Positions 24,338-48,435 of a DNA stretch of 64,000 bases are shown piece after piece. The stretch is from Acidobacteriota bacterium (lineage in GTDB: Bacteria > Acidobacteriota > Holophagae > Thermotomaculales > Thermotomaculaceae). Within the stretch, counting starts at the first letter, position 1. The number at the start of each line of letters is the position of its first letter. Both the position numbers and the translations under genes were made by a program. The DNA is taken from assembly GCA_013152385.1 (NCBI GenBank), contig JAADGL010000055.1, positions 1 to 64,000 of the forward strand. The letters run 5' to 3'. The notes under the pieces are model-generated. The model saw only the letters and a list, made by a program, of their open reading frames with translations. It searched no databases and was not told the DNA's origin.

Positions 24338-24850
24338 ATGACCGCAGGAATTCGGGCGGCAACGGATGAGTTGCAGGATGTTCTTCGGAAGTTCGGGAAG
24401 AACCGGACGGATCTGCTGCCGATACTGGTTGAAATCAATCGTTATTTCGGGCATATTGACAGCAATTCGATTATTGAAGTGAGCCGGTACACAGGTGTTC
24501 CCATCGGGGAGATTCACGGTGTAATCACTTTTTATTCCTTTCTCGGCCAGAAGAAACGCGGACGGTTTGTGATTCGCCTCTGCCGTACAATCAGCTGTGA
24601 TATGGCGGGTAAAGATCAGATTGTTCGGGTGCTGGAGAAGGAATTGGGGATTTGTTTCGGGGAAACGACGGATGACGGGATGTTCAGCCTGGAGTATACC
24701 AACTGTATCGGGATGTGTAACAATCCGCCCGCGATGCTGATTAACGATAAGGCATACGGGGGCCTGACGCCGGAACGGGTTGTGGAAATTCTGGATTCGT
24801 TCAAGTTGTCGGAGTATCAGGATATGTTCGGGTACGGAGGGGTGGAATGA
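24338..24850 (+). CDS. hydC: NuoE-like [2Fe-2S] hydrogenase subunit (HydC type)
   Basis: 170 residues, thioredoxin-like [2Fe-2S] protein. N-terminal helices include LLPILVEINRYFGHI and GVPIGEIHGVITFYSFL. Ligands are Cys in RLCRTISCD and in NCIGMCNNPPAM. In trimeric [FeFe] hydrogenases this subunit passes electrons between the flavin subunit and HydA. It overlaps the NuoF-like gene by ATGA. The name hydC is given by analogy with Thermotoga-type HydABC. Confidence 0.93.
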   Translation: MTAGIRAATDELQDVLRKFGKNRTDLLPILVEINRYFGHIDSNSIIEVSRYTGVPIGEIHGVITFYSFLGQKKRGRFVIRLCRTISCDMAGKDQIVRVLEKELGICFGETTDDGMFSLEYTNCIGMCNNPPAMLINDKAYGGLTPERVVEILDSFKLSEYQDMFGYGGVE

Positions 24851-26016
24851 AGAATGAGAAGAAAAAAATACTCTTCGGGGAGTTCGTGACAGGAGCGGCG
24901 TTGACCCGGGCATTGGAGATGGGGCCTGAGGCGGTTGTGACGGAGGTGAAAGCATCGAATCTCCGGGGCCGCGGCGGAGCGGGGTTTCCAACGGGATTGA
25001 AATGGGAATTGACCGCGAAGCAGGAATCGGATGAAAAGTTTGTTATCTGCAATGCCGATGAGGGGGAACCCGGTACTTTTAAGGACAGGCTTCTTTTGAT
25101 GGAACAGCCGGAAAAGGTTCTGGAGGGTATGGCCATTGCCGGGGTGGCAATCGGCGCAAAGCAGGGGTTTATTTATCTTCGGGGTGAGTATGTTTATTTA
25201 AAGAAGGAGTTGGAAGAGGCAATTTCTTCCATGGAAGACCGGGGATTTCTCGGTTCCCGCATCAATGGAGGCGATTTTTCTTTTTCAGTTGAAATCCGGC
25301 TGGGTGCGGGGGCCTATGTATGCGGGGAGGAGTTCGCGCTGATTTCCTCCATGAACGGTTACCGCGGTGAGCCCCGGAATAAACCGCCGTATCCCAGTGA
25401 AGCGGGATACCGGGATAAACCGACGGTTGTCAATAATGTGGAAACACTTTGCTACATTCCCTATATTGTGACAAAAGGGGCACAGTGGTTTAAAGAGCAT
25501 GGAACCCGGGCATCCACCGGAACAAAGCTGTTTTCGGTTTCCGGAGATGTGAAGCATCCCGGTGTGTATGAACTGGAGCTGGGGATTACGGTCAATCAGC
25601 TGCTGGCGGAGGTTGGAGGCGAAGGGGCGAAATCTGTTCAGGTGGGCGGTGCTTCCGGGCTCAATGTGGCTGAAAAGGATTTTGATCAGCCCATTTGCTT
25701 TGAGGGGCTGCCCCCCGGCGGGTCTATTATTGTTTTTGGCCATCAACGGGATATGCTTCATGTTCTGAAAAATTTCATGGAGTTTTTTGTGGAAGAGTCC
25801 TGCGGCCAGTGCACGCCCTGCCGGGAAGGCAATTACCGTCTGCTGGAAGGGGTGAGGATGCTGGAGAAAGGGGAATGTTCGGTTCGTTATCTGAAAGAAC
25901 TGGAGGCTCTCTGTGATGTGATGAAGGATTCTTCAAAATGCGGGCTGGGACAGACGTCTCCCAATGCTTTTCTGTCCATTGTCGAAAATTTTAAAACCGA
26001 AATTCTGTATCGGTGA
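24847..26016 (+). CDS. hydB: NuoF-like NADH-binding flavoprotein subunit (HydB type, short)
   Basis: 389 residues. FMN/NADH site: NLRGRGGAGFPTGLKW, then NADEGEPGTFKDR and the GAYVCGEEFALISSMNG loop. The [4Fe-4S] ligands are ESCGQCTPCREG plus a downstream Cys in SSKCGLG. It is much shorter than Thermotoga HydB because it lacks the N-terminal thioredoxin-like domain and the C-terminal ferredoxin domain, so it is a plain NuoF core. With NuoE-like and HydA partners it should couple NADH oxidation or formation to hydrogen. Whether it bifurcates with ferredoxin cannot be told from sequence. Confidence 0.92.
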   Translation: MKNEKKKILFGEFVTGAALTRALEMGPEAVVTEVKASNLRGRGGAGFPTGLKWELTAKQESDEKFVICNADEGEPGTFKDRLLLMEQPEKVLEGMAIAGVAIGAKQGFIYLRGEYVYLKKELEEAISSMEDRGFLGSRINGGDFSFSVEIRLGAGAYVCGEEFALISSMNGYRGEPRNKPPYPSEAGYRDKPTVVNNVETLCYIPYIVTKGAQWFKEHGTRASTGTKLFSVSGDVKHPGVYELELGITVNQLLAEVGGEGAKSVQVGGASGLNVAEKDFDQPICFEGLPPGGSIIVFGHQRDMLHVLKNFMEFFVEESCGQCTPCREGNYRLLEGVRMLEKGECSVRYLKELEALCDVMKDSSKCGLGQTSPNAFLSIVENFKTEILYR

Positions 26017-26024
26017 GGATAGAC

Positions 26025-27824
26025 ATGAGTGAAATGATTTCTGTCCGGATTGATGATATCAGCTGTGAAGTTGAGAAGGGAACAACGATTCTGCAGGCGT
26101 GCAAGAGTGCGGGGCTGAGAATCCCCACCCTCTGTTATCATCCGGATCTTGAGGTGGCGGGGATTTGCAGGATTTGTGTGGTGGAAGTGGAAGGGATGAG
26201 CGGGCTGCAGGCGGCCTGCGCTTTTCCGATTCGTCAACCCATTACGGTACGGACCAATTCTCCCCGTATCCGCCGGGCGCGGCGGGTGAATCTTGATTTG
26301 ATTCTTTCCGAACATTACGGAGATTGCTATACCTGTGTCCGGAACGGAAGCTGTGAGCTGCAGGCACTGGCAAGGGAATATGGAGTGGACCGGTACCGGT
26401 ATCCCAGTACAACGGCTCCGAAATTCAGAATTGACCGGTCAACTGCCATTGTCAGGGATCAGAACAAGTGTATTTCCTGTAAGCGTTGTATTCGTACCTG
26501 TATTGATTTGCAGCAGGTTTCGGCTCTGGAAACCGCCAACAGGGGGCATGATGTTTTGATTCAAACTGCTTTTGACAAGCCGATTTCCGAAGTGGTCTGT
26601 ATCAACTGCGGCCAATGTATCAACCGCTGTCCCACCGGTGCGCTTCGCTCCAATATGCCCAATGAGCTGCTCTGGCATGTGATTGATGATCCTGAAAAGC
26701 ATGTGATTATTCAGACTGCGCCCAGCCCCCGGGCCGCAATCGGCGAAGAATTCGGTTATGAGCCCGGTACATCGGTAACCGGGAAGTTGAATGCCGCGCT
26801 CCGGCGTCTGGGGTTTGACAATGTGTTTGATACGAATTTCGCGGCGGATCTGACAATTATGGAAGAGGGGACGGAGCTGCTGACACGTTTAAAAAAAGTG
26901 CTGGTGGATGGAGATTCTTCTGTCAGGGTGCCGATGTTTACTTCATGCTCCCCCGGATGGGTAAAATATGTTGAACATTATTATCCCGAATATCTTGATT
27001 ATCTGTCCACCTGCAAGAGCCCGCAGCAGATGTTCGGAGCTCTTTTGAAAACGTATTACGCGAAAAAGACGGGAATTGACCCGGAGAAGATGGTGGTGGT
27101 GGCGCTGATGCCCTGTGTGGCGAAGAAGTTTGAGTGTAACCGCCCCGAGATGTCGGACAGCGGATATAAAGATGTGGATTTTGGCTTAACGACCCGGGAG
27201 ATGGCTGTGATGATCAAGGAGGCCGGAATTCATCTGAAGGATATGCCGGATGAGGATTTTGACCACCCTCTGGGCCTGGGTTCCGGCGCGGGGCTGATTT
27301 TCGGTGCTACCGGCGGGGTGATGGAGGCGGCTATCCGGAGTGTGTATGAGATTGTGACCGGGCGCCCGGTACCGTTCAAAGGGCTGGATGTTACTCCGGT
27401 CCGGGGAATGGAGGGAATTCGGGATGCGGCGCTGACGATTGAGAATCCGCTGCCGGAGTATCAGTGGCTGGACGGCGTTACACTGAAGGTGGCGGTGGCC
27501 CACGGAACAGCCAACGCAAAGATTTTGATGGAGAAGTTAAAGGAAGGCCGGTTGGATTATCATTTCATTGAGGTGATGGCCTGTCCCGGCGGCTGTCTCG
27601 GCGGTGGCGGCCAGCCGATTCCGACATCCCCGGAGATCCGTGCCGCCCGCGCACGGGCGATTTATTCGGAGGACCATGAACTTACGGTAAGAAAGTCACA
27701 TGAGAATCCTGAAATTAATCAGCTGTATGCGGAGTTTCTGGGGAAACCTCTGGGACAGTTGTCTCATAAGCTACTCCATACCCGTTACACCCCGAGGGGG
27801 CGCTTTTTTACGGAGGGATTTTGA
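26025..27824 (+). CDS. hydA: [FeFe]-hydrogenase catalytic subunit
   Basis: 599 residues. Order: N-terminal [2Fe-2S] domain (CYHPDLEVAGICRIC and a later Cys), His-Cys3 [4Fe-4S] region (HYGDCYTCVRNGSC), a two-cluster ferredoxin domain (CISCKRCIRTC and CINCGQCINRC) and the H-cluster domain. H-cluster motifs are TSCSPGW (306-312), LMPCVAKKFEC and MACPGGCLGGGGQP, with FGATGGVMEA. In the first motif the second Cys of the usual TSCCPGW is Ser. The ATG at 26025 follows GAGG and starts eight bases after the previous stop. HydG and HydF maturases follow in the same operon. Confidence 0.95.
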   Translation: MSEMISVRIDDISCEVEKGTTILQACKSAGLRIPTLCYHPDLEVAGICRICVVEVEGMSGLQAACAFPIRQPITVRTNSPRIRRARRVNLDLILSEHYGDCYTCVRNGSCELQALAREYGVDRYRYPSTTAPKFRIDRSTAIVRDQNKCISCKRCIRTCIDLQQVSALETANRGHDVLIQTAFDKPISEVVCINCGQCINRCPTGALRSNMPNELLWHVIDDPEKHVIIQTAPSPRAAIGEEFGYEPGTSVTGKLNAALRRLGFDNVFDTNFAADLTIMEEGTELLTRLKKVLVDGDSSVRVPMFTSCSPGWVKYVEHYYPEYLDYLSTCKSPQQMFGALLKTYYAKKTGIDPEKMVVVALMPCVAKKFECNRPEMSDSGYKDVDFGLTTREMAVMIKEAGIHLKDMPDEDFDHPLGLGSGAGLIFGATGGVMEAAIRSVYEIVTGRPVPFKGLDVTPVRGMEGIRDAALTIENPLPEYQWLDGVTLKVAVAHGTANAKILMEKLKEGRLDYHFIEVMACPGGCLGGGGQPIPTSPEIRAARARAIYSEDHELTVRKSHENPEINQLYAEFLGKPLGQLSHKLLHTRYTPRGRFFTEGF

Positions 27825-29212
27825 CGAACGCAGCTACCGGTTTTATTGACCATTCCCGGATTTTAGGTGTTCTGGAGAATTCTTGCCCTCCCGATAAGAG
27901 TGAGGTAGAGGAGATTTTATCCCATGCCCTTGAAATGAAAGGAATTTCTGCCGTGGAAACGGAGCGGCTGCTGATGGCGGAGGATGATGAGTTAATTGAT
28001 GAGATTTGCCGCGCCGCTCACCGGATTAAAACTGAAATTTACGGCCGGCGGCTGGTTCTTTTCGCACCGCTTTATGTGTCCAATCTATGCCGGAATGATT
28101 GTCTTTACTGCGCCTTCAGAAAAACAAATACGGCGATTACCCGGCGGACTCTAACCCAGGATGAAATTCGAAGGGAAACGGAAAATCTGGTTTCTCAGGG
28201 CCACAAACGGGTGCTTCTGGTTTCCGGGGAGGGGCTGGGAGAAGATGCGCTGGATTATTCCGTCCGGGCGATTGAGACGATCTACGATGTGAAAGTCGGA
28301 AACGGAGAAATCCGCAGGATTAATATTAATATTGCGCCGCTGCCGGTTGAAGGGTTCAGGCGTCTGAAAGCGGCAAAAATCGGAACATATCAGTTGTTTC
28401 AGGAAACGTATCACTATGATACGTACAAAAAAATGCACCGTTCAGGGCCCAAGTCCGATTATGTGAACCATTTGACGGCAATGGACCGGGCAATGGAGGC
28501 CGGAATTGATGATGTGGGGGTGGGGGTGCTGTTCGGCCTGGCGGATTACCGCTTTGAGATTATGGCGTTGCTTCAGCATGTCCGTCATCTTGAGGCGTCT
28601 TTCGGTGTGGGGCCCCATACGATTTCCATTCCGCGGCTTGAGCCTGCAGAGGGTTCGGATATTTCCAGAAATCCGCCCTTTGCCGTCGGGGACCGGGATT
28701 TTCGTAAAATAATTGCGATTTTAAGGGTTTCCGTTCCATACACCGGGATGATTCTCAGTACGCGGGAGACGGCGGAAATGCGGCGTGAGGCGTTTTCACT
28801 GGGGATTTCACAGATCAGTGCCGGTTCCAGGACTAACCCCGGCGGATATTCGGAGAATCATTCCGGTGCCCAGTTTTCACTTGGGGATCACCGCAGCCTG
28901 GATGAAGTGATTGCGGATATTGCTGCCCATGGTTATGTCCCTTCATTCTGTACCGGCTGTTACCGTCTGGGACGGACGGGGGCGGATTTTATGGATCTTG
29001 CGAAGCCGGGATTGATTCAACTCTATTGCCTGCCCAACGCGTTGACAACATTTAAAGAGTATCTTGAAGATTATGCGGCTTTGGACACAAAGGCTGCCGG
29101 CGAGGCGGTTATCCGGGCGCAGTTGGCAAATATCCCCTCCGATGAGGTAAGAAAAAAAACCATTCGGAATTTGAAAGAGATTGAATCGGGAAAGCGGGAT
29201 TTGTATTTGTAG
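27821..29212 (+). CDS. hydG: [FeFe]-hydrogenase maturase HydG
   Basis: 463 residues. Radical-SAM tyrosine lyase that makes the CO and CN ligands of the H-cluster. The SAM-cluster motif is NLCRNDCLYCAF (CX3CX2C), in the ThiH-like context RLVLFAPLYVSN. The C-terminal second cluster motif is seen as CTGCYRLGRTG. The start is a TTG that overlaps the hydA stop, preceded by a strong GGAGGG, so the two genes are translationally coupled. Confidence 0.93.
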   Translation: MTNAATGFIDHSRILGVLENSCPPDKSEVEEILSHALEMKGISAVETERLLMAEDDELIDEICRAAHRIKTEIYGRRLVLFAPLYVSNLCRNDCLYCAFRKTNTAITRRTLTQDEIRRETENLVSQGHKRVLLVSGEGLGEDALDYSVRAIETIYDVKVGNGEIRRININIAPLPVEGFRRLKAAKIGTYQLFQETYHYDTYKKMHRSGPKSDYVNHLTAMDRAMEAGIDDVGVGVLFGLADYRFEIMALLQHVRHLEASFGVGPHTISIPRLEPAEGSDISRNPPFAVGDRDFRKIIAILRVSVPYTGMILSTRETAEMRREAFSLGISQISAGSRTNPGGYSENHSGAQFSLGDHRSLDEVIADIAAHGYVPSFCTGCYRLGRTGADFMDLAKPGLIQLYCLPNALTTFKEYLEDYAALDTKAAGEAVIRAQLANIPSDEVRKKTIRNLKEIESGKRDLYL

Positions 29213-29221
29213 GGGGTGCGG

Positions 29222-30580
29222 ATGGCAATTGAAAACAAAGACGGCGAGAGCCTGATGGGAGATTTTTCCCGTCAGGCCCGGGAAAATTTTCCTCTGTCCC
29301 GGGGGAAACCGTTCCCTGAATTGATTCATGCGCTTTTTCAGGTAAAACTGGCTTGTCTTGAGACCAATTTCCATTTGGGCTTTTTGCCGGAATCTGTCTT
29401 CGGCCCGTGCCGTAATGCGATCGCGGACGGGCTGGATGGGAAACTGGACGAAAATTTTGATGTTACCCTTTATCAGGGCGGGGCGGGAACTTCTCTGAAT
29501 ATGATGGTGAATGAGGCGGTGGCAGGCCGTGCAGTACATCTTTACGGCGGCCGGGCGGAAGGGGAATCGGCGATTCATCCGATTCTCCATGTGAATCTTC
29601 ACCAGTCCACCAACGATGTGGTTCCCACCGCCGGGCGGGTGGCGGCGATTTTTCTGGTGTATCGGCTGGAAAAAGTGGTTTTGATGTTGCAGGAGGCGCT
29701 GCAGCGGAAGGAGCGTCAATTTGAAGAGGTTGTAAAACCCGGGCGGACGCAGTTCCAGGAAGCGTTTCCCATTACGCTGGGCCGGGAATTTTCCGCTTAT
29801 GCGTCTGCTGTCGCCCGGGACAGGTGGAGGGTCTCCAAGCTGGTGGAGCGGCTCCGGGAGGTGAATCTCGGGGGAACGGCAATTGGAACCGGTGCGCTGG
29901 CACCGGCGAAATATATTTTCCGTGTTGTGGAGAGCTTGAAACATATTACCGGTTTTCCCATTGCCCGCTGTGAAAATCTCGTGGATGGAACGCAGAATAC
30001 GGATGTGCTTGTGGAGGTTCATGGTATTTTAACCGCTTTTGCCGCAACTTTAATTAAAATTTCCGGAGATTTGCGTCTGATGTCTTCCGGGCCGGAACAC
30101 GGTTTCGGAGAGATTCGGTTAAAAAAAGTTCAGGCAGGGTCTTCCATTATGCCGGGGAAGGTGAACCCGGTGATTCCGGAGTTTGTGACAGCGTGTGCGC
30201 TGCGGGTTACAGCCAATCATCAGATGTTGACAACGGCGGCGTCAATGGGGAGTCTTGAACTGAATCCTTTCGGGCTGATAATGATTCACGGACTGCTGGA
30301 ATCCCTGACGTTTCTGCTGGCGGCGGCGGGACAGCTGGCCTTCTGTGTGGATACCGCCTCGGCAAACACTGAAAAACTTTCCGTTTCTTCCCGAAGCGAT
30401 TCGATTGTGATTCACGTTCTGGCCGGCAGGTTCGGTTATGAGAAGGCGGAAGAGATTCTTCATGATGCAGCTGTTGCGGGGGAGAAAGTGGCGGAGTATG
30501 TGGTTAAATCGGGTCTGGTTTCAAAAGGGGAACTGGATTATTTGTTGTCCCCTGAAAATATTCTGAAACTGGGGTTCTGA
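29222..30580 (+). CDS. Aspartase/fumarase-superfamily lyase of the hydrogenase operon
   Basis: 452 residues. Superfamily signature GSSIMPGKVNPVIPE and the conserved segments NVNLHQSTNDVVPTAG (cut as HQSTNDVVPTAG) and GRTQFQEAFPITLG. This suits an aspartate ammonia-lyase more than a fumarase. Its place between hydG and hydF is not random: an aspA-like gene also accompanies hydF in Desulfovibrio. Ammonia released from aspartate could feed the bridging amine of the H-cluster; that is inference. ATG 29222 is taken; an in-frame GTG lies at 29216. Confidence 0.85.
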   Translation: MAIENKDGESLMGDFSRQARENFPLSRGKPFPELIHALFQVKLACLETNFHLGFLPESVFGPCRNAIADGLDGKLDENFDVTLYQGGAGTSLNMMVNEAVAGRAVHLYGGRAEGESAIHPILHVNLHQSTNDVVPTAGRVAAIFLVYRLEKVVLMLQEALQRKERQFEEVVKPGRTQFQEAFPITLGREFSAYASAVARDRWRVSKLVERLREVNLGGTAIGTGALAPAKYIFRVVESLKHITGFPIARCENLVDGTQNTDVLVEVHGILTAFAATLIKISGDLRLMSSGPEHGFGEIRLKKVQAGSSIMPGKVNPVIPEFVTACALRVTANHQMLTTAASMGSLELNPFGLIMIHGLLESLTFLLAAAGQLAFCVDTASANTEKLSVSSRSDSIVIHVLAGRFGYEKAEEILHDAAVAGEKVAEYVVKSGLVSKGELDYLLSPENILKLGF

Positions 30581-30581
30581 T

Positions 30582-31769
30582 ATGGCCGGCACTCCGAAAT
30601 CCAATCGGCCGCATATTGCGGTTTTCGGCCGCCGGAATGTGGGCAAATCTTCACTTATCAATGCGATAACATCCCAGAATCTTTCCATTGTGTCCGATAC
30701 TCCGGGCACAACAACGGATCCGGTTGAAAAGGCAATGGAACTGCTGCCGTTCGGGCCGGTGGTTTTTATTGACACTGCGGGGCTGGATGATGAGGGAGAA
30801 TTGGGGAGCCTGCGGGTGAAGCGTTCCCGGGATGTGCTTCGGAGGACGGATATTGCCATTGTTGTGGCGGCGGGAGAGGTGGGCCCTGTTGAGCAGGGAT
30901 TGATTGAACGGCTCAATGCTATGGAAATTCCGTTTCAGCTTGTTTTTAATAAATCGGATGAAGAAGCGTTTTTTCCGGAAGAGAACGGTGACAGGCGGAA
31001 CTGGCTGGCGGTCAGTGCAAAGACAGGAGAAGGTGTGGAGGTGCTGAAAGCCCGCCTTATTGAAATTCTGCGTGACTGGGCGGAAGATTTGCCCTTTGCG
31101 TTGACGGCAGGGCTTATTCCCCCCGGCGGCCTTGCGGTACTGGTGGCCCCCATTGACAGTGAAACGCCGGCAGGCCGTTTGATTCTGCCGCAGGTTCAGG
31201 TGATCCGGGATATTCTGGATACAGACGCACTCTGTATGGTAATGAAGGAACGGGAGCTGGCCCACGGCCTTCGTCTGCTGAGCAGGCAGCCGGATATTGT
31301 TATTACGGATTCCCAGGCTTTTCTGAAAGTTGCAGGGGATGTTCCCGATGAAGTCCCCATGACTTCGTTTTCCATTCTCTTTGCCAGGCAGAAGGGGGAC
31401 CTGTCCTTACTGGCGGATGGAGCCCGGCAGATTGACAGGCTGCAAAACGGGGATACCGTACTGATTTCGGAGGCATGTACCCATCACACTGCGGGGGATG
31501 ATATCGGGACGGTTAAACTGCCCCGGCTGCTTCGGCAGTATACCGGGAAGCGGCTCCGGTTTATTCATTCCAGGGGCAGGGATTTTGAGTTGGATGACAG
31601 TGTGTCGCTGGTGATTCACTGCGGCGGCTGTATGCTGAACCGCCGGGCAATGGTTTCCAGAATGAATATGAGCGGCGGCAGGCGGATTCCCATAACCAAT
31701 TATGGTATGGCAATTGCTTTTACACTGGGTATTTTTGACCGGGCACTGCGGCCTTTCGGTTTGTTCTGA
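30582..31769 (+). CDS. hydF: [FeFe]-hydrogenase maturase HydF
   Basis: 395 residues. The N-terminal GTPase has G1 GRRNVGKSS, switch region DTPGTTTDP, G3 DTAG and G4 NKSD. The C-terminal iron-sulfur domain has CTHH and HCGGCM, the CxHx(n)HCxxC pattern of HydF. It is the scaffold that receives the precursor cluster and loads HydA. One base separates it from the lyase gene. It is the last gene of the operon and convergent with the sensor kinase. No hydE occurs in this window, so that maturase must be encoded elsewhere or replaced. Confidence 0.95.
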   Translation: MAGTPKSNRPHIAVFGRRNVGKSSLINAITSQNLSIVSDTPGTTTDPVEKAMELLPFGPVVFIDTAGLDDEGELGSLRVKRSRDVLRRTDIAIVVAAGEVGPVEQGLIERLNAMEIPFQLVFNKSDEEAFFPEENGDRRNWLAVSAKTGEGVEVLKARLIEILRDWAEDLPFALTAGLIPPGGLAVLVAPIDSETPAGRLILPQVQVIRDILDTDALCMVMKERELAHGLRLLSRQPDIVITDSQAFLKVAGDVPDEVPMTSFSILFARQKGDLSLLADGARQIDRLQNGDTVLISEACTHHTAGDDIGTVKLPRLLRQYTGKRLRFIHSRGRDFELDDSVSLVIHCGGCMLNRRAMVSRMNMSGGRRIPITNYGMAIAFTLGIFDRALRPFGLF

Positions 31770-40503: not shown

Positions 40504-40552
40504 AAGCCTGAACTCAGTATAATCTCATTTAGAATATGTTAGTTATATCTTC

Positions 40553-40568
40553 TGGCACGTTCCTTGCT
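40553..40568 (+). promoter_or_regulatory. Sigma-54 promoter 1
   Basis: TGGCACGTTCCTTGCT: the -24 GG (40554-40555) and -12 GC (40566-40567) are separated by exactly ten bases, and the flanks TGGCACG and TTGCT match the full consensus. The predicted start is about 40579, immediately before the AGGAGGTG ribosome binding site of the H-like gene. Confidence 0.88.
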
Positions 40569-40592: not shown

Positions 40593-41426
40593 ATGACGAG
40601 CTTACTGATGGCGTTTACATTTCTGGGTTGTTTTCTGATGATTCGGGAAACAGGCCATCATGGAACAAGCCGCAACCTGGATGGGGTTCCGGGGGATTTC
40701 CCGGAAGCGGAAGGGCTGAAAGAAGTTTTCCCCGACCTGCCTCCTGATCGCCGGATTTGCCGGTATTATTTCGGGAATCAGGCTGGAGCGCCGGTTTACT
40801 GTGAAAATGAGTACGAGTGTGTGTCCTGTCATGTTCATCGGAAAATGATGGCTGCAGGGCCGGGGCAGCCGGATGAGTTGCGGTGCGGGTTGAAAGTGGC
40901 CGGAGTGCCGTTTCCCCTTGAGAGGTATTACCATCGGGGCCACGTGTGGGCAAGGCCGGAACGAAACGGTTACGTGCGTATCGGGCTGGACAGCCTTGCG
41001 GTTCAGATGGCCGGAGCGGCTGTAAAGGTACGGTTACCGGATATTGGAGAGATGCTGGACCAGGGGGAATGTTCTTTTTCCGTGACCCGTTCCGGCGGGG
41101 AAACGCTGCCGTTTCTTGCGCCGATGTCAGGAGAAGTGGTGGCGGTGAATCAATTTTTGCGGGAAGATCTCAAGGATTCTCAAAAAAGAAATGAGAGCTG
41201 GGTGCTGGTAATTAAGCCGTTCTCTATGAGCCGGGAGCTGCAGAACCTTTTGTTCGGCACGGAGGCGGCAAAGTGGTTTCGGTATGAAATGGATTCTCTG
41301 GTGAAGTTGGCTGCCGGTGAAATGGGAGAAGATGAATTTGCAGCTGACGGCGGAACATTGGATGTGGAAACACTTACCGGGTTTCCGTGGGGGAAATTCA
41401 TTACAAATTTCTTATTGTCGGCTTGA
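40593..41426 (+). CDS. Membrane-anchored glycine-cleavage H-protein homologue lacking the lipoyl-lysine
   Basis: 277 residues. The N-terminal hydrophobic segment (1-17, MTSLLMAFTFLGCFLMI) resembles those of the small proteins encoded downstream. A Cys/His-rich insert (56-82) includes CVSCH (76-80). An H-protein-like barrel spans about 112-208: YYHRGHVWARPERNGYVRIG corresponds to the H-protein start, and LAPMSGEVVAVN plus WVLVIKP to its end. In true H proteins a lysine in SVKA carries lipoate; here the segment is SVTRSGGETL and no lysine occurs between residues 146 and 193. A C-terminal extension (210-277) is unrecognised. AGGAGGTG precedes the ATG. It cannot serve as a lipoyl carrier; an electron-transfer or assembly role is inferred from its neighbours. 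Confidence 0.8.
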   Translation: MTSLLMAFTFLGCFLMIRETGHHGTSRNLDGVPGDFPEAEGLKEVFPDLPPDRRICRYYFGNQAGAPVYCENEYECVSCHVHRKMMAAGPGQPDELRCGLKVAGVPFPLERYYHRGHVWARPERNGYVRIGLDSLAVQMAGAAVKVRLPDIGEMLDQGECSFSVTRSGGETLPFLAPMSGEVVAVNQFLREDLKDSQKRNESWVLVIKPFSMSRELQNLLFGTEAAKWFRYEMDSLVKLAAGEMGEDEFAADGGTLDVETLTGFPWGKFITNFLLSA

Positions 41427-41444: not shown

Positions 41445-41636
41445 ATGGTTGTTTTACTGGTTATTTTAACTTTTGCGGTGCTGTTCGCGGCGGGAATGAT
41501 GGTGGAACGGCGGGAAAAACGGGAACGGTCTGCGGCCAGGGAACTGCACCGCCTGGCGCAGCAGGCGGTATTTGCCCAGGATGGCGGTGAGCCGTTGAAA
41601 AAAGAAACGGAGGATTCACCGGAGAAAAATTCCTGA
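41445..41636 (+). CDS. Small membrane protein with VFAQDGG motif (copy 1)
   Basis: 63 residues. A membrane segment at 1-20 with no preceding charge, then a very basic stretch (ERREKRERSAARELHR), predicts N-out/C-in orientation. VFAQDGGEPLKKE lies at 42-54, followed by a short acidic tail ending KNS. The motif and its position match the proteins at 42172 and 42382. GGAGG precedes the ATG. It lies 18 bases after the H-like gene in the same sigma-54 unit. No known family is recognised. Confidence 0.75.
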   Translation: MVVLLVILTFAVLFAAGMMVERREKRERSAARELHRLAQQAVFAQDGGEPLKKETEDSPEKNS

Positions 41637-41671
41637 AAGAGACGGCAATATTTTCTGAAAGAGGAGGTGGG

Positions 41672-41728
41672 ATGAGGAATAAAAAATATGGAAACAATCA
41701 ATTGACGGAAATTTTTCCGCCGGCATGA
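41672..41728 (+). CDS. 18-codon micro-ORF with strong ribosome binding site
   Basis: MRNKKYGNNQLTEIFPPA, preceded by GAGGAGG (41661-41667) at good spacing, and ending two bases before the terminator hairpin of the sigma-54 unit. The ribosome binding site is as strong as any in the window. No homologue is known to me, and such short frames can arise by chance. Confidence 0.35.
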   Translation: MRNKKYGNNQLTEIFPPA

Positions 41729-41729
41729 G

Positions 41730-41763
41730 GGCCGGATACCCGCAAACGGTATCCGGCCTTTAT
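41730..41763 (+). terminator. Terminator of sigma-54 unit 1
   Basis: A perfect 11-bp stem, GGCCGGATACC (41730-41740) and GGTATCCGGCC (41748-41758), with loop CGCAAAC and a following TTTATT. Confidence 0.85.
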
Positions 41764-42084
41764 TGTCGGAACAGTTGATGGCAGCGGAAGTTTAGAAAGG
41801 CGGAAAGGGGCAATTTTTGTTTTATCCAAACATAAGATGTGATAAAATGTTTCAAATTGCCGGTGCTTTCCGGCTCCGGCATTTCCGGAACTTCAATTAC
41901 ACAAAAACAATATGTTGAAAAATTCAACAATTGCATGAAAACACAACACTCTTTATAACTATTGAAAACAAAGATGATAGCTTGAATATGGAACGTTGGT
42001 GTAGAAAATCGCAACAATTGCGTCCCGTGCTTCTGGCCAGCCGTAAACAATATAACTAACTGAAAAAACAATTAGATATCATTT
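41764..42084. other. AT-rich regulatory region with palindromes
   Basis: No gene. It is markedly AT-rich compared with its surroundings. It contains TGTTGAA-AAA-TTCAACA (41913-41929), a perfect inverted repeat, and CGCAACAATTGCG (42010-42022), another palindrome, about 190 and 95 bases upstream of the predicted start of sigma-54 unit 2. Both distances suit enhancer sites or bending DNA. Confidence 0.45.
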
Positions 42085-42100
42085 TGGCATGGCAATTGCA
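42085..42100 (+). promoter_or_regulatory. Sigma-54 promoter 2
   Basis: TGGCATGGCAATTGCA: GG (42086-42087) and GC (42098-42099) are exactly ten bases apart, with TGGCA and TTGCA flanks. The predicted start is about 42111. A TATAAT lies at 42102-42107 but has no -35 partner at usable spacing. Confidence 0.78.
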
Positions 42101-42171
42101 ATATAATCGGGTGTCGGGCGGTAGCCCGGGGTCCTTGAAATAAAACGGCGGAAGCCGATGGGAGGCACAAA

Positions 42172-42369
42172 ATGGTTGCTTTGTTAGTCCTTTTTACAAT
42201 TGTCGGATGTTTACTTGCGGATTCGATTGTTCTGTCGGTGCGGCAGCGGAAAGCCGTTATGGCTGGTGAGCGGAGATTAACCGGTGCTGAAAGTCTGGTG
42301 TTTGCCCAGGATGGCGGTAAGCCGGTCAAAAAAGAAACCGAGGCCGACTCGGCTGGCAAAGATTCGTAA
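42172..42369 (+). CDS. Small membrane protein with VFAQDGG motif (copy 2)
   Basis: 65 residues. Membrane segment 1-23 (MVALLVLFTIVGCLLADSIV), then basic RQRK, predicting N-out/C-in. VFAQDGGKPVKKE lies at 43-55 and an acidic-polar tail ends KDS. GGGAGG precedes the ATG. It is first in sigma-54 unit 2; the next copy begins 12 bases later. The close DNA likeness to the 42382 gene indicates tandem duplication. The function is unknown. A small subunit or regulator of the neighbouring ferredoxin/NrfD complex is the best inference. Confidence 0.78.
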   Translation: MVALLVLFTIVGCLLADSIVLSVRQRKAVMAGERRLTGAESLVFAQDGGKPVKKETEADSAGKDS

Positions 42370-42381
42370 AGGAGGACTGAA

Positions 42382-42615
42382 ATGGTTGCTTTACTGGTTT
42401 TGTTTGCAATTCTCGCATGTCTTCTTGCGGATGCAATTCTTCTTTCGGTGCGTGAACATCGGGCAGCCACAGCCGGCAGTTTGGCCAAAACTCCGGCCGG
42501 TTCCATGGTGTTTGCTCAGGATGGCGGCAAACCGGTGAAAAAAGATGAAAACGGCATTGGTGAGGTGCACTGGAAAGAAGATATGAAATCTGATGACGGG
42601 AATGAGAATCAATGA
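42382..42615 (+). CDS. Small membrane protein with VFAQDGG motif (copy 3)
   Basis: 77 residues. Membrane segment 1-23 (MVALLVLFAILACLLADAIL), basic turn VREHR, VFAQDGGKPVKKD at 43-55, and a longer acidic tail ending DDGNENQ. AAAGGAGG precedes the ATG. It is the last gene before the terminator at 42674. Copies 2 and 3 share about the first 26 residues almost completely, differ in the linker, and converge again at the motif, which suggests selection on the anchor and the motif rather than on the linker. Confidence 0.78.
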   Translation: MVALLVLFAILACLLADAILLSVREHRAATAGSLAKTPAGSMVFAQDGGKPVKKDENGIGEVHWKEDMKSDDGNENQ

Positions 42616-42875: not shown

Positions 42876-43667
42876 ATGCCCAAAGCCATGCTGGTGGACA
42901 TTACAGAATGCGTTGGGTGCGGGATCTGTGCCAAGGCCTGTAAAAAGGAACAGAAGCTTCCCGGGCCGGTTGGAAAGAAACGGGATTGGGCCAATTATAC
43001 GGTACTTCGCCCGGAAGGGGATGATGTCTATGTCCGGGAACTGTGTATGCACTGTACGGATCCGACCTGTGCCTCGGTTTGCCCGGTCAGTGCACTGCAT
43101 AAAACCCCGGAAGGCCCGGTGGTGTATGATTTTGACCTTTGTATTGGCTGCCGCTACTGTATGATGGCCTGCCCCTTCGGTGTTCCGAAATATGAGTGGC
43201 AGAAACCGATTCCGAGAATCCGCAAATGTATTATGTGCTATGACACAAGGATAAAAAAAGGCTTGCCGACAGCCTGCAGCCAGGCATGCCAGGAAGATGG
43301 CGGCGGCGCCACTTATTTTGGCGAACGGGCGGATTTGCTGGCGGAAGCGCACCGCCGCATTAAAGAAAACCCGGATACCTATGACAATCATGTGTATGGA
43401 GAACATGAAGTTGGCGGTACCAATGTGTTGTTTCTTGCACCCAAGAACAAGCCTTTTAAATCATTGCAGTTTAATACAAAACTTCCGGACGAGGCACTGC
43501 CTGAGTTGACGTGGCAGGTGCTGAACAAGATTCCGGTCATTATCCCTGTCTGGGCAACTTTTCTCACCGGAATGTGGTGGCTGAATAATCGGAAGGTTGA
43601 AGTGGAGGAGAATCAGGGTTCCAAAAAAATCCGTGACGAGAAGCTGGAAGGGGGCGATGATGAGTAA
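42876..43667 (+). CDS. HybA/DsrO-like ferredoxin with four [4Fe-4S] clusters and C-terminal anchor
   Basis: 263 residues. Four Cys sets: CVGCGICAKAC, CMHCTDPTCASVCP, CIGCRYCMMACP and CIMCYDTRIKKGLPTACSQAC (cut as CIMC and CSQAC). This is the electron-transfer subunit of the molybdopterin/hydrogenase/NrfD modules. Unlike HybA or DsrO it has no Tat signal; the protein starts directly with MPKAMLVDITECVGCG. A membrane segment (about 218-238, IPVIIPVWATFLTGMWWL) anchors the C-terminus. The clusters are therefore predicted on the cytoplasmic side. It overlaps the NrfD-type gene by 8 bases. Confidence 0.92.
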   Translation: MPKAMLVDITECVGCGICAKACKKEQKLPGPVGKKRDWANYTVLRPEGDDVYVRELCMHCTDPTCASVCPVSALHKTPEGPVVYDFDLCIGCRYCMMACPFGVPKYEWQKPIPRIRKCIMCYDTRIKKGLPTACSQACQEDGGGATYFGERADLLAEAHRRIKENPDTYDNHVYGEHEVGGTNVLFLAPKNKPFKSLQFNTKLPDEALPELTWQVLNKIPVIIPVWATFLTGMWWLNNRKVEVEENQGSKKIRDEKLEGGDDE

Positions 43668-44823
43668 GCCGAAATTCAAGTTCACATTCTGGCGGGTTGT
43701 GGCGGCGCTGATATTGATTGCCGGTGCGGTGGCAACTTATCAGCGTTTTGTGTACGGATTGGGATATGCGACTCATCTGTCCGATGATTTCCCCTGGGGA
43801 ATCTGGATCGGGTTTGACGTGATTTCCGGTGTGGGACTGGCGGCCGGCGGTTTTACCATTACCGCAATTGTTTATATTTTTAACCTGAAAAAATATCATT
43901 GTATTGTAAAGCCGACAGTGCTGACCGCTTTCATGGGATACGTACTGGTTGGAACCGCTCTGTTGTGGGACCTTGGTAAATACTATGATATCTGGCACCC
44001 GCTGGTGTTCGGAAACCACCATTCGGCTATGTTTGAGCTTGCGGTCTGTGTAATGAGTTATACCGGTGTTCTGGCACTGGAATTTTCTTCCATTGCGCTG
44101 GGTAAATTCAAATGGTTCCGCAAACCGGTGAATTTTCTGAAAAGTACTTATATTGTGCTGGTCATTCTCGGTGTACTGATTTCCACTTTGCATCAGTCTT
44201 CCCTTGGAACACTCTATGTAATTGTTCCTGAAAAGCTGCATCCCCTCTGGTATAGCCGTCTTCTGCCGATTTATTTCTTTTTTACGGCAGTAGGGGCCGG
44301 GTTGAGCATGACGGTTGTGGAATCTTATCTCAGCTGGCGGGGAATGGGCCACGAAGCGCCTCTGCCGGTACTGGCAAATCTGGTGCGGGGGATGGTTGTA
44401 ATTCAGTTAACCTATTTTGTCGCCATGTTTGAGGGCCTGATTGTTAATCATAAACTTGGCTATCTGGTGGACGGCTCGTTTGAATCCGGGATGTGGTGGC
44501 TGGAAATTACACTGTGGGTATTTATTCCGACCATTATTGCGTTTCGCAAGAAATGGCTGGCGACCCGTTTCGGTGTGTTTGCCGCCGGTTTTTCCGGAGT
44601 TCTGGGTTTTCTGATGAATCGTCTGAACGTTTCGATGACGGCATTTCAATGGTCTGCAAAGGTGAAATACATGCCGTCCTGGCAGGAAGTGGCGGTGTCG
44701 GCGTCTTTTGTGGTTGTTTCCTTTATTATTTTCGGCTTTGCCGTGAAATACTTTGATTTGTTCGAAGAAGAGGACCACGAGGGGCATGAATCCATAGAAG
44801 AATCCGCTGTCAAAGCGGTTTAA
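43660..44823 (+). CDS. NrfD/HybB-type quinone-reactive membrane subunit
   Basis: 387 residues with about 10 membrane segments. HybB-like features: FVYGLGYATHLSDDFPWGIW in the first loop, GVGLAAGGFTITA, LWDLGKYYDIWHPLVF, LSTLHQSSLGTLYVI (here ISTLHQSSLGTLY) and GMWWLEITLWVFIP. These proteins exchange electrons between an iron-sulfur subunit and menaquinone. The C-terminus is acidic and His-rich (FEEEDHEGHESIEES). The start is ATG at 43660 (another ATG at 43657), just inside the ferredoxin gene, with GGAAGGGGG upstream. No catalytic molybdopterin or hydrogenase subunit is adjacent, so the redox partner is unknown. Confidence 0.92.
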   Translation: MSKPKFKFTFWRVVAALILIAGAVATYQRFVYGLGYATHLSDDFPWGIWIGFDVISGVGLAAGGFTITAIVYIFNLKKYHCIVKPTVLTAFMGYVLVGTALLWDLGKYYDIWHPLVFGNHHSAMFELAVCVMSYTGVLALEFSSIALGKFKWFRKPVNFLKSTYIVLVILGVLISTLHQSSLGTLYVIVPEKLHPLWYSRLLPIYFFFTAVGAGLSMTVVESYLSWRGMGHEAPLPVLANLVRGMVVIQLTYFVAMFEGLIVNHKLGYLVDGSFESGMWWLEITLWVFIPTIIAFRKKWLATRFGVFAAGFSGVLGFLMNRLNVSMTAFQWSAKVKYMPSWQEVAVSASFVVVSFIIFGFAVKYFDLFEEEDHEGHESIEESAVKAV

Positions 44824-44877: not shown

Positions 44878-46464
44878 ATGAACCCATTGCAGAACATTAC
44901 ATCAATCCGGCTGAAAATATTTATTATTATTGCGGTTTCCATTACCTTTGCCTTTCTTGCATTCGATCTGATTATGTTGAAGCACCAGCAGAATATTTAT
45001 ATTGAAGATTTGATGTTTAATACACATTCCGTTGCGGATACAATTCTGAAATCATTGGAACAGGATATGATGGCGGACAATACAACCAGTATCAACAAAA
45101 CCCTCTTTGCAATCGGAAAACAGGAAATTATCAAGGAATTGAGAATTTACAATCACAAAGGCGAAGTTCGTTCTTCCATGATTCCGGATGAAGTGGGGCA
45201 TGTGCAATTTTCCAGAGCCAAATCCCGTCAATGTACCATTTGTCACAAGAATGGAAACGGGCCGAACCGCGACAAAAATATGCTGACTTACAATGTTGAT
45301 TTTAAAGATACCTGTATAACGTATGTAATTGTTCCCATTCAAAACCAGGGGAGGTGTTCCAGTGCGGCATGTCATGCCCACAGCCCGTCCCAGAAAATTC
45401 TGGGATTTCTCAATATGGGAGTTTGCAGGAAACGCCTTCAGGCTTCCATTCACAAAAGCCAGGTTCAAATTCTTCTGGTTTCTCTTCTTTTTATTCTTCT
45501 TCTTCCGGGATTGATAATGCTGTTCCTGAAAAAGCATGTGTCTCAGCCGTTGCGTCAGCTTCTGAAGAGTACCCGGCAGATTACAAAAGGAGATCTCGAC
45601 TGCAAAGTAAACATTGTCAGCCGGGATGAGGTGGGACAGCTGGCCCTTTCCTTTAATAAAATGCTGGAACGCCTTGTTGCTTTCAAAACAGAGATTGAGG
45701 GGTGGAATGAAGAGTTGGAAGAACGGGTGAACCGGAAAACGGCACAGTTGAAAGAGGCTCAGAAACAGATTATTCAGGCAGAAAAGATGTCATCCCTCGG
45801 ACGGCTGGCGGCTGTAATTGCCCATGAAATCAATAATCCGATATCCGGTTTAATTGTTTTTATCAATCTGTTGCAAAAAACGATGGACAAAGAATCATTC
45901 AGCGAGGCAGACCGGATGAAGGTAATAAAAAGGCTGGGTATAATGGAAACGGAAGCAAAACGCTGCGGGCATATTGTATCCGAGCTCCTGTCTTTTTCCA
46001 GGGCGGAACATAAAATGGTGGACTGCAATATTTCTGAAATTATTGTTCGTTCGGTTTCAATTCTGAAATTCAAAACCAAAGATAAACAGATTGGCCTGAA
46101 CCTCGAAATTGAACCGGACATTCCGGTGATCCGGTGTGATCCGGGGAAAGTTCAGCAACTTATTATGAATTTGGTTCAAAATGCCATTGATGCGTTGCCT
46201 CAGGGGGGAGAAATTGACATTTCTGCCAGCTATTTGAAAGAAAAAGAGCAGTTGAAACTGGTGGTTCATGACAATGGGATAGGAATACCGTCAGAGTTTC
46301 TGCCGCATATTTTTGAGCCTTTTTATTCATCCAAAGACAACGGTCAGAGTGTGGGAATCGGCTTGTTTGTGGTGTATGGGGTCGTTCATCAGCACAATGG
46401 CGTTATTGATGTTCAAAGTACCGAGGGGGAAGGGACAACTTTTACCATTTTGCTCCCTGCGTAG
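44878..46464 (+). CDS. Sensor histidine kinase with putative diheme-type periplasmic domain
   Basis: 528 residues. Membrane segments at about 12-33 and 197-217 enclose an extracytoplasmic domain with CTICH (119-123, CxxCH) and CSSAACH (160-166, CxxxxCH), the two heme-c attachment patterns found together in cytochrome c3-type proteins. HAMP (about 218-270), coiled coil, phosphoacceptor His316 in VIAHEINNP, and an ATPase domain with MNLVQNAIDALP, DNGIGIP and VGIGLFVVYGV follow. It probably senses redox state at the membrane and phosphorylates the NtrC-type protein encoded next. Heme binding is inferred from motifs only; zinc or disulfide use is possible. The ATG follows GAAGGGGGG. Confidence 0.9.
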   Translation: MNPLQNITSIRLKIFIIIAVSITFAFLAFDLIMLKHQQNIYIEDLMFNTHSVADTILKSLEQDMMADNTTSINKTLFAIGKQEIIKELRIYNHKGEVRSSMIPDEVGHVQFSRAKSRQCTICHKNGNGPNRDKNMLTYNVDFKDTCITYVIVPIQNQGRCSSAACHAHSPSQKILGFLNMGVCRKRLQASIHKSQVQILLVSLLFILLLPGLIMLFLKKHVSQPLRQLLKSTRQITKGDLDCKVNIVSRDEVGQLALSFNKMLERLVAFKTEIEGWNEELEERVNRKTAQLKEAQKQIIQAEKMSSLGRLAAVIAHEINNPISGLIVFINLLQKTMDKESFSEADRMKVIKRLGIMETEAKRCGHIVSELLSFSRAEHKMVDCNISEIIVRSVSILKFKTKDKQIGLNLEIEPDIPVIRCDPGKVQQLIMNLVQNAIDALPQGGEIDISASYLKEKEQLKLVVHDNGIGIPSEFLPHIFEPFYSSKDNGQSVGIGLFVVYGVVHQHNGVIDVQSTEGEGTTFTILLPA

Positions 46465-46559: not shown

Positions 46560-47906
46560 ATGAATGAAAATGTAAAAATACTGATTGTGGATGATGAACT
46601 GATTGTCCGGGAATCCATGAAGGGCTGGCTGGAAGAAGACGGCTATCACGTGGAAGTGGCGGAAACGGCGGAGGCTGCCCTGGGAATGATTGGCGAAAAA
46701 GAATTTGATATGGCTTTTGTGGATATCAAAATGCCGGGTATTGATGGAATTGAGCTGCTGAAACGTTTGAAAGATCAATATTCCACCATTGATGTGGTGA
46801 TGATGACGGCTTATGCTTCAGTGGACAATGCTGTGGAGGCAATGAAAGTCGGAGCATACGACTATCTGACAAAGCCTTTTGATCCGGATTATGTTTCCAT
46901 GATGGTGAGAAAGATTATCGCACGGCGCCAGCTTGAGCAGGAAAATGTAAGGTTGAAAGAAAATATCGAGACCGCTTTGAAGCATGTGCATATTATCGGA
47001 GAAAGCCCGGCAATCAAGGCAATTCTGAAACAGGTGGAAGAAGTGGCGGTTTCCGATACTTCTGTTCTTATTGGTGGCGAAAGCGGTACCGGTAAAGAAA
47101 TGGTAGCCCGGGCGATTCACTATGCCAGTCCCAGGCGCTTTGAGCCGCTGGTTGTGGTCAGTTGCGGTGCTTTGCCTGAAGGGCTGGTGGAAAGCGAACT
47201 TTTCGGCTATGAGCGGGGTGCCTTTACCGGTGCTTTTTATAAGAAAAAAGGAAAATTCGAGGCGGCGAACGGAGGCACATTGTTCCTTGATGAAATCGGG
47301 GAGTTAAATGCCAAAATGCAGGTGGATCTGCTTCGGGTTCTTCAGGAACGCGAAATTACCCGGATCGGCAGCAACAAGAGTATTAAAGTTGATTTCCGGG
47401 TTCTGGCTGCGTCCAACCGGAATCTCAAAGAGATGGTGGAAGAGGGGACATTCAGAGAGGATTTGTTTTATCGCCTGAATGTTTTTAATATTCATGTGCC
47501 GCCTCTTCGGGAACGAGTGGAAGATATCCCGTTGCTTGTGGAATATTTTATTTCCATGCTTCGGAGACAAACCGGCAAACAGGTAGAAGGAATTACGGCC
47601 CAGGCATTGAATAAGTTGAAGCAGCATGGCTGGCCCGGGAATGTCAGGGAGCTTCAAAACGCGGTGGAACGGGCTTTTGTGACGGCAAAGGGGAAGCTTA
47701 TTACCACGGAAGAGCTGGCCTTCCTTGCGCCTGAAAAAATACCGGTTGTTACTTCTCCGTCCCTTTCACTGGCTGAGATTGAGAAAATGCACATTGAGAA
47801 TGTGTTGAAGGAATGCGATTACAACATCTCCATGGGGGCAAAGGTACTTGGAATTGACCGTACCACCCTCTACAACAAGATGAAGAAGTATGGCATCGAA
47901 AAGTGA
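46560..47906 (+). CDS. NtrC-family sigma-54-dependent response regulator
   Basis: 448 residues. Receiver (1-120; acidic ILIVDDE, phospho-Asp in AFVDIKMPG, Lys in YLTKPFD), AAA+ domain (about 140-370; Walker A GGESGTGKE, the sigma-54 contact loop GAFTGA, Walker B GTLFLDEIGE, and GNVRELQNAVERA) and a Fis-type helix-turn-helix at the end (NISMGAKVLGIDRTTLYNKM). It must act through sigma-54 and is the natural activator of the promoters at 40553 and 42085. The upstream gap of 95 bases after the kinase holds no terminator. It overlaps the archaemetzincin gene by 17 bases. Confidence 0.95.
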   Translation: MNENVKILIVDDELIVRESMKGWLEEDGYHVEVAETAEAALGMIGEKEFDMAFVDIKMPGIDGIELLKRLKDQYSTIDVVMMTAYASVDNAVEAMKVGAYDYLTKPFDPDYVSMMVRKIIARRQLEQENVRLKENIETALKHVHIIGESPAIKAILKQVEEVAVSDTSVLIGGESGTGKEMVARAIHYASPRRFEPLVVVSCGALPEGLVESELFGYERGAFTGAFYKKKGKFEAANGGTLFLDEIGELNAKMQVDLLRVLQEREITRIGSNKSIKVDFRVLAASNRNLKEMVEEGTFREDLFYRLNVFNIHVPPLRERVEDIPLLVEYFISMLRRQTGKQVEGITAQALNKLKQHGWPGNVRELQNAVERAFVTAKGKLITTEELAFLAPEKIPVVTSPSLSLAEIEKMHIENVLKECDYNISMGAKVLGIDRTTLYNKMKKYGIEK

Positions 47907-48435
47907 AGAGAAGATTATTCTTGCGCCTGTACATTTTCCCAAAGAGATTCTGAGTCGGCATCTTTTTGAAACGTTGGAGACGATCTTTAAACGTCCGGTG
48001 TATATTGCATCTCCAAAACTGGATTTGCATCCGTTTTTTGACCCGGCCCGGGACCAGTATCAATCCACTGCCATTTTAAAACACTTCATCAAGACCACAC
48101 CCCGGGGAGAGAGCAAGATTTGTCTATTGGTTAAAGAAGACCTTTTTATTCCCGTTCTGACATTTGTTTTCGGGGAAGCACACATGTACGGGCAATTTGC
48201 CATTGTCTCCTCCCACCGCCTGCGGGAACAATTCTACATGCGGGAAGAGAATCTGAAACTCCTGGAACAGCGTTTGTTGAAAGAAATTGTTCACGAATTG
48301 GGCCACACATTCGGTCTGGTTCACTGCATGGATGACAGATGTGTTATGCACAATTCATACACGGTTGAAGATACCGACCATAAAAACGTTTATCCCTGTG
48401 AAGTTTGTTTTGCAAAACTGGACGAAGTCCTCTGA
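47890..48435 (+). CDS. amzA: Archaemetzincin-family zinc metalloprotease
   Basis: 181 residues. Active site HELGHTFGLVHC, then CVMHNS and a distal CEVC, the HEXXHXXGXXHCX4CXM...CXXC signature of archaemetzincins, which bind a catalytic and a structural zinc. Physiological substrates are unknown. The ATG lies within the end of the response-regulator gene, so the two are translationally coupled; whether this metalloprotease belongs to the sigma-54 system is an open question. Confidence 0.92.
   Translation: MASKSEEKIILAPVHFPKEILSRHLFETLETIFKRPVYIASPKLDLHPFFDPARDQYQSTAILKHFIKTTPRGESKICLLVKEDLFIPVLTFVFGEAHMYGQFAIVSSHRLREQFYMREENLKLLEQRLLKEIVHELGHTFGLVHCMDDRCVMHNSYTVEDTDHKNVYPCEVCFAKLDEVL

Follow-up and report, generated by a model that had tools for sequence, protein, structure and literature searches.

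The window analysed here, a stretch of 64,000 nucleotides, corresponds to contig C19 of an Acidobacteriota genome (G000) with a size of 2.57 Mb. On its forward strand lie genes which encode, in this order, a GcvH-like protein, three small proteins (A, B1 and B2, hereafter the minis), an Fe–S subunit, an NrfD subunit, a haem-type kinase, a sigma-54 regulator and an archaemetzincin. An earlier reading of the same DNA from the letters alone (the sequence-only reading) had singled out three small membrane proteins with a common motif. That reading did not include the sigma-54 promoters, the operon context or a fourth, unlinked copy.

The small proteins, their neighbours and their promoters

The three proteins are confirmed. 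A (41445..41636, + strand) has 63 residues, B1 (42172..42369, +) has 65 and B2 (42382..42615, +) has 77. All three reading frames are intact, with an ATG start and a Shine–Dalgarno sequence each. The layout is common to them: hydrophobic residues 2-20, predicted to form a single N-terminal membrane helix, a basic linker, the motif VFAQDGG[KE]P and a charged tail. A carries VFAQDGGEPLKK and has Gly17 in its anchor. Both B1 and B2 carry VFAQDGGKPVKK and B1 has Asp17; in B2 a longer acidic tail with VHWKED is added. The valine of the motif is residue 42 in A and residue 43 in both B1 and B2, as the sequence-only reading had placed it.

The fourth mini, a B-subtype protein of 70 residues, is encoded on another contig of the same genome (C29:4526-4738, or L002:1501-1713) and is apparently monocistronic. 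It is preceded by a perfect sigma-54 site and followed by a strong terminator hairpin, and it is conserved in genomes G001-G003. No NrfD genes were seen in the 3 kb examined beside it. Sequence divides the minis into two paralogous subtypes, A with the protein at 41445, and B with those at 42172 and 42382 and the unlinked copy. In some copies only (42382, the C29 copy, L031:4212 and L032:3646), the tail has a further conserved patch of roughly the form [EN][VI]xW[EK][DE].

Directly upstream of A, the gene at 40593..41426 (+) encodes a membrane-anchored GcvH-like protein of 277 residues. It comprises an N-terminal hydrophobic anchor, a cysteine cluster, an H domain without the lipoyl-lysine and a C-terminal EFAADGG. 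Downstream of B2, the Fe–S electron-transfer subunit (42876..43667, +) is HmcB/HybA-like; it has a hydrophobic segment in its C-terminal part, and no Tat signal was seen. The NrfD-family membrane subunit (43660..44823, +) is HmcC/HybB-like. Their NCBIfam scores stay below the curated Hmc cut-offs (HmcB, 235.5 bits for a cut-off of 420; HmcC, 303.8 bits for a cut-off of 550). The sensor histidine kinase (44878..46464, +) has two c-haem-like motifs, CTICH and the variant CSSAACH, between its N-terminal membrane segments, which suggests c-type haem sensing. It is followed by a sigma-54-dependent response regulator of the AtoC/NtrC type (46560..47906, +) and by an archaemetzincin-family protein (47890..48435, +; NCBIfam NF033823, 162 bits, above the cut-off of 145). 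In several families (L110, L111, L112, L096 and L159), an archaemetzincin gene is again a neighbour of kinase, sigma-54 regulator and GcvH-like genes. Elsewhere in the window, at 24847-31769, a cluster with HydG-like and HydF-like genes resembles, on inspection only, an electron-bifurcating [FeFe] hydrogenase.

Sigma-54 (-24/-12) promoter-like sites precede these units. The site CTGGCACGTTCCTTGCT (40552..40568, +) lies 41 nt before the GcvH-like gene. In G002 and G003 a site of the same kind stands at -41, and G112 has one at -44, which gives a distance of 41-44 nt in four species. A perfect site, TTGGCATGGCAATTGCA (42084..42100, +), lies 88 nt before B1 and is conserved at -89/-90 in G002 and G003 (88-90 nt in three species). 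It is also conserved before the unlinked copy, at 88-91 nt in three species, with a one-mismatch site in a fourth. Furthermore, near-consensus sites stand before A in G004 and G008. Genome-wide, 52 sites with up to one mismatch were counted against 34 for a reversed control pattern, so single sites alone are weak evidence. The positional conservation of the sites across species is strong: a conserved -24/-12 site at constant upstream distance, the mark of a sigma-54 regulon, is present in several species.

B1 and the unlinked copy have in common a 5′ leader (42105..42171, +, before B1) which holds the Shine–Dalgarno sequence and two short hairpins, each with a tetraloop (42115-42128 and 42146-42157). 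It matches no Rfam family and no known riboswitch, and support for the fold from pair counts is weak because few positions vary. The GcvH-like/A unit is closed by an intrinsic-terminator-like hairpin (41730..41765, +) with a fold of -31.2 kcal/mol and a z of -5.7, which the pattern scan did not list.

Conservation, selection and genomic context

Besides the window genome, homologues of the minis were found in G001-G004 and G008, which belong to the same family, and in G112 and G133 from another family of the phylum. Each of the eight genomes with the system, from two families in total, holds both an A and a B orthologue. Among 25 aligned minis every reading frame is intact, and the string FAQDGG is invariant together with M1, L4, L5 and V6. 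The NG86 dN/dS ratios are 0.11-0.38 for all orthologue pairs except one at 0.52, and from the values of most pairs we conclude that the minis are real, selected proteins. The sequence-only reading had expected real short proteins under selection and named a dN/dS near 1 as the result which would speak against it; the calculation was run and the ratios bear the expectation out.

Two further statements of that reading hold in part. It had described a linker that varies while anchor and motif stay. Anchor and motif are indeed the most conserved segments, but the fastest-evolving part, with the lowest identity, is the C-terminal tail and not the linker. Between the A and B subtypes the linker is unrelated (identity 0.09) and the motif is conserved (0.84). 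It had also described a fixed distance between membrane and motif. The window's genus has 22-23 residues from residue 20 to the motif phenylalanine, the other lineages 20-21; the distance is thus near-constant and clade-specific but not fixed.

Beyond Acidobacteriota, the search consisted of a scan for the exact peptide patterns over contigs of one genome per GTDB species; it gave matches only in Acidobacteria, and the named carriers are all MAGs. In Pfam no convincing match was obtained for any of the 25 minis, and no GCV_H match among them. In NCBIfam the two B proteins had no match and A had matches at chance level only, and a PDB sequence search with the minis returned chance-level matches, for example to the SecG helix. 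The minis match no curated models of TatA, CydX, CcoQ and other known small-protein families, and the FAQDGG string was not found in the literature searched. The minis are a new, lineage-restricted family of small proteins under purifying selection, absent from the curated libraries searched. Chance or spurious reading frames are ruled out by the homologues and the dN/dS ratios. A phage or mobile origin was likewise rejected: no relative was found in viral contigs, and only a chance match in phages.

The same set of genes (GcvH-like, A, B, Fe–S, NrfD, kinase and sigma-54 regulator) is found in the two families. Its arrangement changes between genomes. In G004 and G112, tatA/tatB/tatC-like genes recognised by inspection stand ahead of the set; A and B precede the GcvH-like gene in G004 and follow it in G112. 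In G002, a gene for a sensor of 957 residues lies on the opposite strand between the GcvH-like/A and B1/B2 units. The minis and an HmcC/HybB-like NrfD gene are both present in G000-G004, G008, G112 and G133 and both absent from G005-G007, although this joint absence rests mainly on G005 (97% complete), because the other two genomes are only 83-89% complete. Synteny and co-occurrence show that the minis are part of a membrane electron-transfer module together with the HmcB/HybA-like Fe–S subunit, the HmcC/HybB-like NrfD subunit and the GcvH-like protein. When a profile of the 25 minis was searched over 396 Acidobacteriota genomes, most of those with GcvH-like/NrfD modules had no A/B mini; the minis are therefore not needed by the module in general.

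Other small proteins were encountered at related loci. In Holophagaceae, proteins of 54-61 residues with the same anchor and Asp17 and without DGG are encoded beside Fe–S/NrfD genes (L151:2605-2790, L152:1753-1923, L153:1708-1872 and L155:2122-2307). Other families (G087, G118, G266 and G277) have Qrc-like operons in which a GcvH-like gene is preceded by a mini of a second kind, with a single helix and a tail of the LxxTMADGGEK type. Examples are L113:2005-2253, L114:2793-3044, L115:2758-2973 and L173:1495-1860, and the tail is degenerate in L174. These proteins may be analogous rather than homologous to the A/B minis. At L098/L157, a GcvH-like gene occurs without NrfD nearby.

Relation to the membrane-anchored GcvH-like proteins

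The protein at 40593 matches Pfam GCV_H (PF01597) with 8.7e-15 over residues 111-227 and is homologous to the H domain. However, the lipoylated lysine of the E-S-V-K turn is missing: the protein reads FSVTRSGGETLPFLAP, without lysine, where the canonical GcvH of the same genome, encoded elsewhere on contig C51, reads SIESVKAVADVFSP. In one distant relative (L043) a lysine is present near the lipoylation turn. When the phylum was searched with the 40593 protein, 92 of 247 genomes yielded GcvH-like proteins. Ordinary GcvH will account for part of these; many of them have the architecture of anchor, H domain and [QA]DGG. Of the 52 non-redundant GcvH-like proteins, 40 have the tripeptide DGG within their last 70 residues, against 1.4 expected from shuffling. 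Typically, it is located 26-35 residues from the C-terminus and has [AQ] before it.

Asp17 is found in all 26 GcvH-like anchors listed (one counted from the second methionine) and in all B-type minis; A-type minis have Gly17. The adjacent protein 40593 lacks Asp17, and the B anchors are for this reason closer to other GcvH-like anchors than to that of their neighbour. After its own family, the next-best matches of the mini profile (E from 3e-6 upward) are the N-termini of longer GcvH-like reading frames. All 17 reading frames recovered from these loci are GcvH-like with E < 1e-38, and 7 further loci gave no reading frame by the automatic rule.

From the profile matches, the DGG counts and the adjacent protein with EFAADGG, we conclude that the minis are GcvH-like proteins without the H domain. 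In their sequences they hold both ends of these proteins, the membrane anchor and the AQDGG motif, with no H domain between. They may have arisen by internal deletion or by separate assembly. The sequence-only reading had assigned the motif to no recognised family. This no longer stands, as anchor and motif correspond to the two termini of the membrane-anchored GcvH-like family, one member of which is the adjacent protein. The minis have the anchor M-[TV]-x-[LI]-x-V...Asp17 (aspartate in B, glycine in A) and the [QA]DGG motif, and they are encoded in the same operons as the large proteins. In contrast to the latter, they lack the H domain (PF01597), the cysteine cluster and the C-terminal helix which is found after DGG in the large proteins. 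Because none of the 25 minis gives a GCV_H match, we do not file them as members of the GcvH-like family.

An AlphaFold model of the GcvH-like protein (mean pLDDT 46.7, below 50 in the motif region) reaches moderate confidence for the H domain only and does not place the DGG. We found no established name for the membrane-anchored GcvH-like family of Acidobacteriota NrfD/Qrc-like operons, and literature searches returned no described GcvH-like proteins in NrfD or Qrc operons. Some members sit behind a membrane anchor and are fused to a receiver-like segment (L097:853-1962, L101:1390-2577 and reading frames of 366-375 residues in Holophagaceae, L137-L148). These are mostly without DGG, and the L101 copy lies beside kinase and NrfD genes. 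Tandem pairs of GcvH-like genes occur in relatives (L087, L090, L093 and L094).

Proposed role and comparison with known systems

The relation to the GcvH-like proteins suggests that the minis dock on the same complex as small switchable parts. With moderate confidence, we propose that they are single-helix accessory or exchangeable subunits docked on the cytoplasmic face of the NrfD complex, either alongside the GcvH-like subunit or in its place. The basic linker, the motif and the charged tail would lie on the cytoplasmic side, because the basic linker falls under the positive-inside rule. The anchor, common with the GcvH-like protein, would pack against the NrfD subunit, since, in the loci long enough to read, it is found again in proteins whose genes adjoin those for NrfD. 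The DGG motif would dock at the site used by the tail of the GcvH-like subunit, and the minis would set the amount of GcvH-like protein on the NrfD complex. Their supply would be set by the sigma-54 promoters, for which the haem-type kinase and sigma-54 regulator encoded nearby are the probable switch. A bolder version, in which the minis are microprotein regulators that are sigma-54-induced via the haem kinase, displace the full-length GcvH-like protein and re-route or throttle electron flow, appears rather unlikely to us.

The minis could also be constitutive structural subunits, stoichiometric and with a single helix, or assembly factors of the Fe–S/NrfD complex, like CydX or CcoQ in oxidases, with A and B as a fixed pair and no competition with the GcvH-like protein. 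The presence of A and B together in all eight genomes, the contiguity of the mini genes with Fe–S/NrfD and the anchor-only small proteins beside Fe–S/NrfD genes in Holophagaceae all fit this possibility. We regard it as conceivable but doubtful: the DGG tail common with the GcvH-like proteins, the separate sigma-54 control of each unit and the existence of a free-standing B copy that has a promoter and a terminator to itself are left unexplained. The sigma-54 sites before the GcvH-like and mini units, together with the kinase, sigma-54 regulator and archaemetzincin genes recurrent beside these loci, would suit a function in signalling. In such a scheme, the tails present DGG to the kinase, the regulator or the archaemetzincin, with feedback on sigma-54 transcription. 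Several GcvH-like proteins are indeed fused to a receiver-like segment (L097 and L101), but as these are mostly the ones without DGG, the motif does not track with a signalling domain, and we judge a signalling role improbable.

The match of the minis to both ends of GcvH-like proteins and the tandem gene pairs of relatives would also be compatible with decaying leftovers of tandem GcvH-like genes that persist by chance after loss of the H domain. Such an origin is very improbable: dN/dS is 0.11-0.38 across species, all 25 sequences have intact frames, promoters as well as ribosome-binding sites are conserved, and two bacterial families have retained the minis. Export of a peptide is the least credible proposal. 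V-F-A before Q resembles a cleavage site of the A-X-A type, and signal peptidase I could in principle cut between VFA and QD and release the C-terminal part outside. Signal-peptidase sites lie directly after the hydrophobic core. However, the motif is situated 20-23 residues past the hydrophobic stretch, across the basic linker, and does not qualify as such a site; in GcvH-like proteins the same motif follows a folded domain and lies close to the C-terminus. Our order of preference is accessory or exchangeable subunits, then plain structural subunits, then signalling proteins.

A hitherto unexplained motif thus yields a definite hypothesis, namely that the anchor and DGG of respiratory-operon GcvH-like proteins also exist as free-standing minis. 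It offers a handle on the docking surfaces of GcvH-like proteins, for whose membrane-anchored forms in respiratory operons we found no described function, and on the tuning of NrfD complexes by small subunits.

Among known systems, the Fe–S and NrfD genes of the window recall Hmc and hydrogenase-2 (HybA–HybB): their closest NCBIfam models are HmcB and HmcC, with scores below both cut-offs. Literature searches found no DGG minis described for Hmc or Hyb. GcvH-like proteins with a role outside glycine cleavage are known, as exemplified by LbpA (PMC6067878). The neighbour 40593 has the same H domain as GcvH, judged by sequence, but it lacks the lipoyl-lysine and is membrane-anchored, while the minis are without the H domain altogether. 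No Hdr-like sulfur-oxidation genes were seen beside 40593. CydX and CcoQ resemble the minis in size, in their one membrane helix and in their location in respiratory operons. The minis differ from them in that no Pfam family was detected, that their DGG motif is conserved and probably cytoplasmic, and that they are under sigma-54 control. Small single-helix parts are known from respiratory operons; headless copies of GcvH-like proteins under sigma-54 control are, as far as tested, a new variant.
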